A stretch of DNA of 23,401 nucleotides from a virus. The translations under genes were made by a program, and so were the position numbers. Positions 125 to 3,701 of the stretch are shown here, in pieces. The stretch lies in IMG/VR virus record IMGVR_UViG_3300042555_002766, positions 1 through 23,401 of that record, one strand, 5' to 3'. Under the pieces are notes generated by a model that saw only the letters and a program-made list of their open reading frames with translations, made no database searches and was not told the origin of the DNA. Numbering within the stretch: position 1 is the stretch's first letter; each line of letters opens with the position of its first letter.

Positions 125-613
125 ATGGCTGATTTACTGATGAAAATGCCGGTTCCTTACGAACCCAAAAGACAAAACAGATTCATTTTGAGATTCCCTT
201 CATCTTTAGGGATTAATGAGTGGTTCGTGGAATCAACATCAAGACCAAATATAAAAATTAATTCAACTGAAATTCAATTTTTAAATACTTCAACATATGT
301 TGCGGGTAGATTTACTTGGAATGAAATTAATGTTAAGTTCCGTGACCCAATCGGACCTTCTGCGGCTCAAGCTTTAATGGAATGGGTTCGTTTACATGCT
401 GAATCTGTTACAGGACGTATGGGATACGCAGCTGGATATAAGAAAGATATTGATTTGGAATTGTTAGACCCAACAGGAGTTGTTGTTGAGAAATGGATTC
501 TACAAGGAACTTTCTTAACAAATGTGAACTTTGATAGTTTGAATTACTCTCAAGACGCTTTGGCAACAATTTCGGCAAGTCTAAGACCTGACCGTTGTAT
601 CTTAGTATACTAA
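125..613 (+). CDS. 19: Tail tube protein, gp19-like
   Basis: The 162-residue protein matches T4 gp19 in length (163) and layout. It has an N-terminal segment leading into RFILRFPSSLG, a mainly beta-strand body, the segment VAGRFTWNEINVKFRD near residues 59-74, and a C-terminal half with LELLDPTG and WILQGTFLTNV. This is typical of the tube fold that stacks as hexamers to form the inner tail tube. The start ATG at 125 has no Shine-Dalgarno sequence; the upstream region is A-rich. A strong terminator follows 27 bases after the stop, as suits an abundant structural protein. Arg codons include several CGT, unlike the AGA-dominated tape measure gene, also consistent with high expression. The related tube-fold proteins gp48/gp54 are much larger, so gp19 is the better fit. 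Confidence 0.8.
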   Translation: MADLLMKMPVPYEPKRQNRFILRFPSSLGINEWFVESTSRPNIKINSTEIQFLNTSTYVAGRFTWNEINVKFRDPIGPSAAQALMEWVRLHAESVTGRMGYAAGYKKDIDLELLDPTGVVVEKWILQGTFLTNVNFDSLNYSQDALATISASLRPDRCILVY

Positions 614-812: not shown

Positions 813-1562
813 ATGGACCAAACATCTCAATATGGACAAATGAATTTTAGTCTACCACATGATGTAGTACCACTACCATCAAAGGGTAAATTTTATGCAA
901 ATAAAAAGAAAAGTTTAAAGATTGGGTATTTAACCGCAGCCGACGAAAACATTTTAATGGGAGGGAGCACCAAAGAAGGATTAATGATGACTTTACTAAG
1001 AAATAAAATTTATGAACCAGACATCAGACCTGAAGAACTATTAAATGGTGATGTTGAGGCGATTATGGTCTTTCTAAGAAACACATCATTTGGTCCTCAA
1101 TATAATATTAAAGCGACTGACCCTGAAACAGGAAAACAATTTAGTACTGAATTAATTTTGACTGAGTTATACACTAAAGATACTCAGGTTGAACCAAATG
1201 ACGAAGGTTTTTTTGAAACGGTTTTACCAAAATCAGGTTCAAAAGTTCTATTAAGACCTCTTACTGCTGGTGATAGTGCTGAAATTGACAGGATTATTGA
1301 TTCGTACCCAGCTGGTAGAGTTGCTCCAAGACAAACTTTAAGATTGTCAAAAATGATTGTTGAGATTGACGGAATTAGAAATAAGGAAGAACTTTCAAAA
1401 TACATTGATAATATGCCAATTATGGATTCAAAACACATAAAGAATTTTATGCTTGAAAATGAACCAAGATTGGATTTAAGACAAACAGTTATAGCCCCGT
1501 CAGGAAAAGAGGTCGTCGTAGATATTCTCTTTGGGGTTGAGTTTTTTCGTCCTTTCTTCTGA
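813..1562 (+). CDS. 26: gp26-like baseplate/tail assembly protein, frame-0 product
   Basis: This 249-residue protein resembles the T4 gp26 group of baseplate hub assembly proteins. The signs are an N-terminal LPSKGKFY motif (residues 21-28), the segment YLTAADENIL (39-48), a later LLRPLTAGDSAEID, and a C-terminus ending in FGVEFFRPFF. Members assist hub or tape-measure assembly in the cytoplasm and are not necessarily kept in the virion. The gene sits directly before the tape measure gene, where tail assembly chaperones lie in many phages. It ends in TGA, whereas the large genes here all end in TAA. In the +1 frame an open reading frame continues to 1701, so a longer frameshift product of about 295 residues is likely. 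The gp26 assignment comes from motif memory and is moderate. Start ATG 813 has an A-run but no Shine-Dalgarno sequence. Confidence 0.6.
   Translation: MDQTSQYGQMNFSLPHDVVPLPSKGKFYANKKKSLKIGYLTAADENILMGGSTKEGLMMTLLRNKIYEPDIRPEELLNGDVEAIMVFLRNTSFGPQYNIKATDPETGKQFSTELILTELYTKDTQVEPNDEGFFETVLPKSGSKVLLRPLTAGDSAEIDRIIDSYPAGRVAPRQTLRLSKMIVEIDGIRNKEELSKYIDNMPIMDSKHIKNFMLENEPRLDLRQTVIAPSGKEVVVDILFGVEFFRPFF
1542..1548 (+). other. Candidate +1 ribosomal frameshift site (TTTTTTC)
   Basis: In frame 0 the ribosome reads GAG TTT TTT CGT, then meets TGA four codons later. A Phe-tRNA on UUU at 1545-1547 can re-pair with UUC at 1546-1548, its cognate codon, moving the ribosome +1 into the frame that stays open to 1701. 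The +1 frame is closed upstream by TAG 1519-1521, so any shift must happen between 1522 and 1562. A -2 shift would give the same frame. The exact site is inferred. Confidence 0.45.
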
Positions 1563-1701
1563 TTACTCACAGGGTAGAAACCTTGAATTTTATTATTTAG
1601 CAAAATTTCTTCATATATCGTATAGTGATTTTATGATAATGCCTATAAGCACTAGAAGATTTCTTTTGGATAAACTAGTAAGTGATAGCCGACAAGAGTA
1701 A
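1549..1701 (+). CDS. +1-frame extension of the gp26-like gene (tail assembly chaperone C-terminal part)
   Basis: This frame encodes 50 residues after the proposed shift. The region around residues 31-42 (MPISTRRFLLDK) together with the preceding FLHISYSDF resembles small proteins and chaperone extensions seen near gp26 in other T4-like phages. Those carry a similar hydrophobic run followed by MP-x-R-R-F-hydrophobic-K. It has no ATG until 1633, which would leave only 22 residues. TTG codons at 1531 and 1537 are the only alternative early starts. Placement between a gp26-like frame and the tape measure gene mirrors the G/GT arrangement of phage tails, where a frameshift makes a minor longer chaperone. 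A single-base indel in the T6 run, real or an assembly error, would also join the two frames. Confidence 0.6.
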   Translation, partial: VLSSDYSQGRNLEFYYLAKFLHISYSDFMIMPISTRRFLLDKLVSDSRQE

Positions 1702-1736: not shown

Positions 1737-3701
1737 ATGTTACAAACAGGAGAATCAGGTGAAGCTGGTAAAACAGAAAAACTGCAAACAAAAGATTTAG
1801 CCGACCCGTTAACGGAAGCCGGTGAAAGTATGGCAACGTATTTTAAAAATGCGTTTAATCCTGCTGAAATTTTAAAGTCGTTTGCATCAATTTTTAGTCA
1901 ATTAGAAGGACTTGCATCGTCGTTTAATAAAACGATGGGTGGAGGTGATATATACTCTCAAAAAATTAAACAAAATCTTATTGCGGGTAAAGAAGCGGCT
2001 GAAGAATATGGTTTTACATTCGCAGATATTGCGTCTTTACAACAAAAAATTACTGAACAGGAACAAACTAATTTTACATTACAGGGGGACCAATATGAAA
2101 GATTTTTAGTTCAAGCTGAGTTAACAAAGGGTATATCACAAACTGCAGTTCAGGCTGCGTCTAGTAATTACGAAACTTTTAAAAATTTAGGATTAACCGT
2201 TCAAGGAACACTAAAAAGTTCTGAAGATATTATACAATCGGCATCAAGATATGGTGTAAGTGCCAGTGCGGTATTTAAACAAATTAACGCAAATGCTTCT
2301 GAGTTAAATCTATTTAATTTTGATAATGGAGTTCAAGGAATGGCTAAAATGGCGACTGAATCAATTTTGTTTAAAGCTAATATGAAGACCACTTTGGATT
2401 TGGCAAACAATTTATTTGACCCTCAGAAGGCTCTTGATATGGCTGCGGGTCTACAAAGAATGGGGGTCCAAGTAACAGGAATGTTAGACCCAATATCTTT
2501 AATGAACATGGCTGAAAATGACCCTGCGGAGTTACAAAGAAATATTGTTGAGATATCAAAATCATTTATGGAATTTGATGAAAAACAACAAAGATTTGTT
2601 GTTATGCCAGGGGCTCAAAGACAGATTAGAGAAGTTGCAGCAACATTAGGTATACCGGCTAAAGAGTTGGAAAAAATGGGTAGAAATGCTTTTGAATTGG
2701 AAGCTAAAATGGGACAAATTAAATTTCCAAGTATTGATGAATTTGCAAGTGAGGAAGCTAGAACGATGGTTGCGAATATGGCTCAACTTAATGAGACAAC
2801 TGGAAAATATGAAATTGAAGTTTATGATAAAGACCTAGGTTATAATGTTATTAAAGCTGTTGATGACCTTAAAAAAGATGATTTAAAGGGTGTTGAAAAA
2901 GCTCAACAAAACGCAAATAAAAGTACTGAGGAATTATTAAGAGATGCGAATGGACATTTAGCGAATATTTCAAACGCATTTAAAGCGGGAACAAGTAGAG
3001 TTCCGACCGCTTTGGCAGCATCAAAAGTTGCTCAGGATAAAGTGTCGTTTGCAGGGGGGTCTGTTGAACCTGTTGTTCAGACATTAATGGATGTTTTATA
3101 TGGAGAAGAAGGGACAAAAGGTATTACAACTAAAATTAACTTGGCGAGTAAACAAATTGACCAAATGTTAGAGTCCCTCATCAAGGGTGAAACAACTTTG
3201 GCAGATGCTGGAAAAAAACTGACAGAGGTTATTAAAGAGATTGGGGCAAAAAAAATAGAAGATTTTAAAGAATTTTCAGATGTTTATGGGAAAAACCAAC
3301 AGGAAGCATTCCAAAGCAATCCCGAATACGACACCCCGTTTCAAATTACTCCTGATATGATTAATGCATTACAAAATTTTGTAAAATCTTTAATGAATGG
3401 TAGACAAGTTTCCGATGGTGTAATTAGTCCAGATGGTGGCTTAGTTGTAATGGGTGAAAAAGGAAGTTTTTTTGCTGATAAAGACGACTCAGTTTTATTA
3501 TCTCCAAATATACCAACGGGTAGTTCTGATAATAAATCAGGGGGTCAAACCAATTCAACGGTTACTGCATCGGGTAAGGTTGAAATTGAACATAAGTTTA
3601 GTGGAGTTGAAGCGTGGTTTAAAGATTATATGTTATCCCAAGGGTTCTTGGCGGATTTCGTTCCAACTTTAGAAAAGTTTTTAACAAAAACGGAAGGTTA
3701 A
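1737..3701 (+). CDS. 29: Tape measure protein, gp29-like
   Basis: The 654-residue protein is Ala-, Gln- and Lys-rich and predicted mostly helical, with long amphipathic stretches in the first 450 residues. This is the usual look of a tail length ruler, and T4 gp29 has 590 residues. Near residues 557-592 it has DGVISPDGGLVVMGEKGSFF followed by KDDSVLLSP, a pattern I associate with the C-terminal region of tape measure proteins. It follows a gp26-like chaperone with a probable frameshift extension, the standard position for a tape measure gene. At the usual 1.5 angstrom per residue it would specify a tail near 100 nm, similar to T4. ATG 1737 is preceded by an A-run and CTT, with no Shine-Dalgarno sequence. 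Arg codons are almost all AGA. Confidence 0.75.
   Translation: MLQTGESGEAGKTEKLQTKDLADPLTEAGESMATYFKNAFNPAEILKSFASIFSQLEGLASSFNKTMGGGDIYSQKIKQNLIAGKEAAEEYGFTFADIASLQQKITEQEQTNFTLQGDQYERFLVQAELTKGISQTAVQAASSNYETFKNLGLTVQGTLKSSEDIIQSASRYGVSASAVFKQINANASELNLFNFDNGVQGMAKMATESILFKANMKTTLDLANNLFDPQKALDMAAGLQRMGVQVTGMLDPISLMNMAENDPAELQRNIVEISKSFMEFDEKQQRFVVMPGAQRQIREVAATLGIPAKELEKMGRNAFELEAKMGQIKFPSIDEFASEEARTMVANMAQLNETTGKYEIEVYDKDLGYNVIKAVDDLKKDDLKGVEKAQQNANKSTEELLRDANGHLANISNAFKAGTSRVPTALAASKVAQDKVSFAGGSVEPVVQTLMDVLYGEEGTKGITTKINLASKQIDQMLESLIKGETTLADAGKKLTEVIKEIGAKKIEDFKEFSDVYGKNQQEAFQSNPEYDTPFQITPDMINALQNFVKSLMNGRQVSDGVISPDGGLVVMGEKGSFFADKDDSVLLSPNIPTGSSDNKSGGQTNSTVTASGKVEIEHKFSGVEAWFKDYMLSQGFLADFVPTLEKFLTKTEG

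Follow-up and report, generated by a model that had tools for sequence, protein, structure and literature searches.

A T4-like phage tail assembly chaperone gene with a predicted programmed +1 frameshift at a UUU_CGN site behind a conserved 5' RNA hairpin

The IMG/VR virus record IMGVR_UViG_3300042555_002766, analysed here as one stretch of 23,401 bases (the window; all coordinates refer to its + strand), carries a T4 gp26-like gene whose end overlaps a second open frame. This gene lies between a tail tube gene, recognised by a family match, and a presumed tape measure gene, recognised by gene order. Our analysis suggests that it is a single tail assembly chaperone (TAC) gene with two products, which are very probably made by programmed +1 ribosomal frameshifting at a UUU_CGN site just downstream of an RNA hairpin (Table 1). 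Comparison of sequences shows that both frames exist, that UUU_CGN is constrained, that a hairpin is present and that the extension is homologous to a known chaperone domain.

A preliminary description of the window had reported the end of frame 0, a +1 frame open from 1522, the run TTTTTTC (1542-1548) and a TGA separated by four codons from the slip codon TTT (1545-1547), and all these coordinates and sequence statements proved correct. The exact sequence of the window gene is also present in six other contigs from different samples, so that an assembly error, including the homopolymer error at the T-run that had been considered, can be excluded. A protein search of IMG/VR gave 63 loci and a profile search at least 593 viral loci; the first-round set comprised 58 loci with a readable 3' end, in 21 classes. 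Both frames and the same junction are kept in 58/58 of these loci. As later ingroup loci with a readable 3' end behave likewise, the homologue alignment that the preliminary description had proposed shows the two-frame arrangement in every such ingroup relative, which exceeds chance. In the relatives, frame 0 stops shortly past ..EFFRPFF and the +1 frame runs about 46-58 residues beyond that stop, following the pattern F-x-LSS-x-Y-R...DEFYYL...SYSDF..MP..xRKYLIDK. Substitutions in the extension fall mostly at third positions of the +1 frame in close pairs of loci (for example 12/16 between L017 and L074, 20/30 between L112 and L123), and the extension thus evolves as protein.

The same data bear on the possibility that there is no frameshift, the extension being translated from its own start (TTG or an internal ATG) or being a decaying remnant. 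The +1 frame of the window does contain TTG at 1531 and 1537 and ATG at 1633 and 1639. Nevertheless, the absence of a useful ATG noted earlier was confirmed, there being none upstream and the first ones lying inside the domain; the TTG codons and other upstream starts are not conserved, and no conserved start codon was found ahead of the +1 domain among the relatives examined. Moreover, the open frame of L056 has no ATG, GTG or TTG before the domain core, and L013 and L062 lack any start upstream of the slip site. With an extension constrained at the protein level and a junction that is the stretch most constrained at synonymous sites, we regard this explanation as extremely improbable.

The nature of the shift site emerges from codon statistics on 72 non-redundant genes (less than 90% nucleotide identity). 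TTT stands at the slip position in 72/72 sequences, while the other Phe codons are 78% TTT and 22% TTC, and the codon that follows is CGN in 72/72, compared with 91% AGA or AGG among the other Arg codons. In scans of 2.9 million viral contigs, we found at least 120 cases of TTT-TTT-CGN and 64 of TTC-TTT-CGN, with no TTC at the slip codon and no AGN after it. The 64 contigs carry TTCTTTCG, hence no uninterrupted homopolymer, and the 62 readable ones all keep the extension. Within the window, the shift site is the single in-frame occurrence of TTT_CGN across 15 open reading frames (ORFs). Re-pairing at UUU_C, in which Phe-tRNA would leave UUU for UUC, with which it pairs better, while CGN occupies the A site, is the sole fit to these codon constraints. 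The T-run itself had been taken as the signal; the actual signal would be UUU_CGN together with an upstream hairpin that had been missed.

Regarding direction, the preliminary description had left open +1 or -2. Our analysis upholds a programmed shift that takes place at the T-run and leads into the +1 frame, and the -2 alternative is excluded by the TTC TTT CGN relatives, which are unable to re-pair two bases back. A -2 ribosomal shift on the T-run in the style of phage Mu would reach the same frame with one extra residue, has a precedent in the corresponding gene of Mu (PMC3498833) and would be permitted by the U6 of the window; in those relatives, however, it would place Phe-tRNA on UCU with a mid-codon mismatch. 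It would also leave the CGN requirement unexplained, and a hairpin pulling from the 5' side would favour the forward direction. We therefore give this mechanism hardly any credence. The predicted junction tryptic peptide is EVVVDILFGVEFFVLSSDYSQGR for +1, and would be EVVVDILFGVEFFFVLSSDYSQGR for -2.

The TGA four codons on had also been counted as part of the site, a role that does not hold, since several relatives have a sense codon at that position and the nearby stop is thus not needed. A stop-driven shift resembling that of RF2 was accordingly rejected on six relatives without the TGA (L014, L098, L103, L105, L139 and L141). Two other slip sites were considered and ruled out: CCT_T by L093 (CGG GTT TTC) and L091 (CCG), and GGG_G by L102.

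Synonymous constraint is also found 40-50 nt upstream of the slip site, where 59/59 Ala codons are GCC and 72/72 Gly codons GGA, and again just before the slip site, where a GGG codon occurs in 71/72. Unguided RNAalifold prediction on the 72 sequences gave a hairpin that pairs these two constrained patches. A separate folding calculation for the hairpin gave -14.1 kcal/mol. Its outer stem is 1494-1499/1532-1537 (GCCCCG/UGGGGU), with 1493/1538 also pairing in many relatives, and its inner stem, partly imperfect in the window, is 1509-1517/1523-1531; the base lies 6-7 nt upstream of the slip codon, a distance fixed across the ingroup. The stem cells are paired in 94% of cases, compared with 39-65% in slid versions. 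On a 207-taxon tree, the stem shows 38 double compensatory changes, compared with 1-11 for slid partners. The cleanest test was restricted to column pairs at third codon positions (n=171): the top four by excess base-pairing are four of the predicted stem pairs, and the five third-position stem pairs have a mean of 17.8 double changes against 1.2-4.0 in controls. When hairpins are compared along the gene (about 220 positions), that of the main clade ranks among the top five in strength, with the exception of L102; the GGAC of L102 could also pair with a nearer GUCC, and the case for the stem is therefore not rested on this locus.

The hairpin contains a bulge, UCAGGA(G/A)AA (alignment columns 19-27), whose GGA is invariant in the 72 sequences. 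This bulge looks like a Shine-Dalgarno sequence and is complementary to UUCUUCUGA, located 3' of the slip site. A pseudoknot between the bulge and UUCUUCUGA (1554-1562) obtained no support in a covariation test. An Rfam search with the hairpin gave only a chance match and no such family. A covariance model run against outgroup phages recovered the window alone, and the small E-value of the window is so by construction, since a contig with the exact window sequence is in the model.

A stable hairpin about 4 nt ahead of a U-run might also point to transcriptional slippage, the RNA polymerase dropping one U in T6 behind the nascent hairpin, and the fusion then arising by ordinary translation of the shortened transcript. 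Slippage of this kind, with a hairpin in the nascent RNA, has a natural precedent in a Roseiflexus IS630 element (PMC5009743), and the first TTT codon is enriched too (70/72). However, the 64 TTC TTT CGN contigs have at most three consecutive T and the readable ones keep the extension. The C and then G after the T-run are absolute (AGN 0), which a homopolymer would not need, and about 10 nt separate the base of the hairpin from the RNA 3' end, whereas in the precedent the hairpin is adjacent to the slippery run. This explanation is thus, in our opinion, very unlikely.

In the frameshifting model that we favor, the majority of ribosomes would stay in frame 0 and give a 249-residue TAC-N, the efficiency of the shift being presumably low. 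A minority would pause while the P site holds Phe-tRNA on UUU (1545) and the A site a scarce CGN, and the mRNA behind the ribosome would refold into the conserved hairpin, its base 6-7 nt 5' of the P-site codon. This hairpin would pull the mRNA 5'-ward or block backward movement, so that Phe-tRNA re-pairs on UUC, one base downstream. Translation would then proceed to 1701 and yield a 295-residue TAC-NC with the TAC-C domain, which in T4 gp51 is part of a single frame.

Each element of this ribosomal model has some precedent. UUU_CGN is the core of the +1 site of influenza PA-X, proven by mass spectrometry (PMC3498833), and has been proposed as the +1 site of amalgaviruses (PMC5052127). In yeast, and with 70S ribosomes in synthetic constructs, +1 shifting rises when an upstream hairpin refolds behind the ribosome (PMC3639245, PMC6321510). 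A 2025 study of the yeast gene ABP140 showed that a natural stem-loop 6 nt 5' of the shift site enhances +1 shifting exclusively at sites where the P-site tRNA can re-pair, and that moving the stem-loop by one codon abolishes the effect (PMC12661321). Given the 6-7 nt between hairpin base and slip codon and the perfect re-pairing, we infer that the phage hairpin acts in the same way as the ABP140 stem-loop.

Several points weigh against this interpretation. The frameshift is a prediction from sequence, and the presumed slowness of CGN in the host is deduced only from the codon usage of the phages. The covariation stems almost wholly from metagenomic phages that are related to one another; the shuffle control behind the 94% pairing leaves relatedness in, a concern that is lessened, though not abolished, by the tree counts. 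Not all relatives have the hairpin, which is mostly missing from a marine clade with UUU_CGN. Finally, distant +1 relatives have UUU followed by other codons, their contexts being TTT_CTT in immuto, TTT_TGG in Mel-JY01, TTT_CAC in SP-15, TTT_AGT in LIS04, TTT_CGT in GXN1 and TTT_CTA in LR756508.

The marine clade (L337, L338, L343, L344, L345, L347, L352, L353, L358, L373 and L374) has the extension VLSTAYRNALLQEFYYLM. In this clade, TTTTTTCGTCCTTTCTACGGCATATAGGAATG is almost invariant and the extension is kept. Since the UUU_CGN site is retained there while the hairpin is mostly absent, these phages may use a different stimulator. They are also consistent with another view, namely that the hairpin serves some other role (transcription pausing or termination, mRNA stability or autoregulation) and that UUU_CGN alone drives the shift. 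PA-X, for which a 3' stimulator is not known (PMC8310308), and the conserved bulge, which our model leaves unexplained, would agree with this view. In contrast, the hairpin base keeps a constant distance of 6-7 nt to the slip codon throughout the ingroup, which matches the spacing that is critical in yeast ABP140, and we consider a separate role of the hairpin rather unlikely.

Beyond the main group, +1-frame extensions occur near the end of the chaperone gene in L066, L067, L068 and L065 (Listeria LIS04, Streptococcus GXN1, Bacillus SP-15 and LR756508), and GXN1 combines TTT_CGT with an upstream hairpin of similar layout. Two cultured phages have a +1-frame TAC-C that is unannotated or split into small ORFs: Flavobacterium phage immuto_2-6A (L395, 2730-2970) and Microcystis phage Mel-JY01 (L396, 2776-3012). 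Cultured relatives at 28% identity infect Flavobacterium. Upstream hairpins in the distant +1 phages are mixed: strong in LR756508, fair in immuto, and absent or unremarkable in LIS04, SP-15 and Mel-JY01. An extension in an apparent -1 frame was observed at T-rich runs in Xanthomonas phage XacN1 (L069, about 3255-3290) and uncultured LR756511 (L397, about 2700-2769), so the direction of the shift has probably changed within the family. A 26%-identical relative (L151) in contig JAFSKR010000029.1, from a Bacteroidaceae metagenome-assembled genome of goat reticulum, has TTTCGN near its end without a long +1 extension. It therefore looks as if +1 chaperone shifting is broad in the family, as judged from these genes, with UUU_CGN plus hairpin marking a large group around the window, in which hundreds of related viruses retain the arrangement.

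The assignment as a tail assembly chaperone comes from profile searches. The frame-0 product matches Pfam PF12322 T4_baseplate (E 5.7e-9, 36.4 bits, cut-off 24.5), which T4 gp26 and gp51 both match, and PHROG 150 (E 9.7e-10). On the latter profile of 282 positions, residues 3-248 of T4 gp51 cover 13-280, and the gp26 match ends at 235. The fused product of the relative L038 aligns end to end as gp51 does (residues 12-293 on 10-278, E 5e-17), which identifies the extension as a TAC-C domain; as the window's own fusion reaches profile position 241 only, this assignment rests partly on relatives. Direct hhalign comparisons of alignments A1 and A2 with single T4 sequences, including A2 against gp51, were not significant, and the link to T4 rests accordingly on the Pfam and PHROG profiles. 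The earlier proposal, in which a gp26-like protein is lengthened by a tail-chaperone part ahead of the presumed tape measure gene, is borne out, and the pair would represent a short TAC-N and a long TAC-NC, with a putative chaperone role. The short and long chaperones of T4 are encoded by the separate genes 26 and 51. According to papers (PMC12846349, PMC10885494) that cite Vladimirov, Gautam and Davidson 2022 (PMID 34826709), that study assigned them to these genes and reported frameshifted chaperones in T4-like phages. The principle is thus known since 2022, and the earlier suggestion that such a frameshift was undescribed for T4-like phages is corrected, as far as the citing papers convey that study.

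Tail assembly chaperone frameshifts of the lambda G/GT type were reportedly described by Xu, Hendrix and Duda in 2004. Like lambda G/GT and the T4-like chaperones, the present gene, of the gp26/gp51 family, would have a short and a frameshift-extended long form encoded beside the tape measure gene. It differs in shifting by +1 and not by -1, in having UUU_CGN where a -1 heptamer or poly-T signal is used by the others, and in its 5' hairpin; T4 itself uses two genes. Shifting by +1 in phage tail genes is shared with SPP1 and Listeria phage PSA, which are siphophages with proline-codon slip sites and are not known to use UUU_CGN. The bacterial prfB gene (RF2) resembles our model in a forward push by a duplex just upstream of the P site and a slow A site, but relies on Shine-Dalgarno:rRNA pairing and an A-site UGA, whereas here the push would come from a hairpin within the mRNA, the A site would hold a CGN sense codon and the stop is dispensable. 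With influenza A PA-X and plant amalgaviruses, the locus shares the identical UUU_CGN core, UUU to UUC re-pairing in the P site and CGN in the A site (PMC3498833, PMC5052127), although those are RNA viruses of eukaryotes. In PA-X, a UCC E-site codon matters and no 5' hairpin is described in the papers examined, whereas here the E-site codon is UUU or UUC. With yeast ABP140 (PMC12661321) and the synthetic hairpins (PMC3639245, PMC6321510), it shares a stem-loop about 6 nt 5' of the slip codon and a proposed mRNA pull favoring +1 re-pairing in the P site; those are a eukaryotic gene and artificial constructs, while this gene occurs naturally in phages, its 9-nt bulge is conserved and its stem has undergone many independent compensatory changes.

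The gene content of the window is T4-like (tail tube, gp32-like, UvsX-like, exonuclease, DnaB-type helicase and ribonucleotide reductase). The product of 1737..3701 had no significant family match among Pfam and PHROG profiles; the same gene order is found in Flavobacterium phage immuto_2-6A and Listeria phage LIS04, both with annotated tape measure genes. TGA had been noted as an unusual stop, and indeed the chaperone ORF alone uses it among the 14 complete larger ORFs checked. None of the 15 larger ORFs has a Shine-Dalgarno-like upstream sequence; the sequence before the starts is A/T-rich, as in many Bacteroidota phages. Between the tube and chaperone genes (638-772), a small ORF carries a zinc-finger-like CPTCGKKF..RHNK motif.

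Table 1. Features of the chaperone locus in the window and the evidence on which each was placed.
Feature	Position	Strand	Description	Evidence
Tail tube gene, upstream neighbour	125..613	+		PHROG 4542, E 4.1e-29
TAC-N, short tail assembly chaperone, T4 gp26-like	813..1562	+	249 residues; stop TGA 1560-1562	Pfam PF12322, PHROG 150
5' RNA hairpin	1493..1538	+		RNAalifold, pair counts, tree-based covariation
9-nt bulge in hairpin	1500..1508	+	UCAGGAAAA in the window, UCAGGAGAA in most relatives	GGA invariant in 72 sequences
Predicted shift site	1545..1550	+	UUU_CGU (consensus UUU_CGN)	Codon counts in 72 genes, contig scans
TAC-C, +1-frame extension	1546..1701	+	51 residues (F-VLSSDYSQGRNLEFYYLAKFLHISYSDFMIMPISTRRFLLDKLVSDSRQE); stop TAA 1699-1701	
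Double-coding stretch	1551..1562	+	CCTTTCTTCTGA; read as RPFF-stop in frame 0 and as LSSD in +1; almost invariant	
Presumed tape measure gene, downstream neighbour	1737..3701	+		Position only

To conclude, frameshifted tail chaperones, UUU_CGN sites and stimulation by 5' stem-loops are each known separately. In the papers searched, we found neither a phage gene described as combining them nor a bacterial +1 site described as having a natural 5' hairpin. The combined form thus looks new for bacteria and their phages, having been shown in bacteria previously only in artificial constructs. We consider it fairly probable that this is the first natural bacterial or phage case of a hairpin behind the ribosome driving a programmed +1 shift, here coupled to the UUU_CGN of eukaryotic viruses. 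According to a 2016 review (PMC5009743), long-tailed phages 'except T4' have kept G-T frameshifting, and +1 shifting could 'perhaps' be stimulated by mRNA structure on the 5' side; the locus bears on both statements. If our interpretation is true, the phage would use the 6-nt geometry of yeast ABP140 without relying on Shine-Dalgarno pairing, possibly an advantage in hosts where such pairing is rare, and a phage locus and a yeast gene would share the same solution. Being natural and highly conserved, and having many compensatory variants in nature, the locus offers a bacterial system in which hairpin-pulled +1 shifting can be tested. Moreover, UUU_CGN with a 5' hairpin provides a simple search pattern for missed chaperone extensions in environmental phages, in which the long form is usually unannotated.
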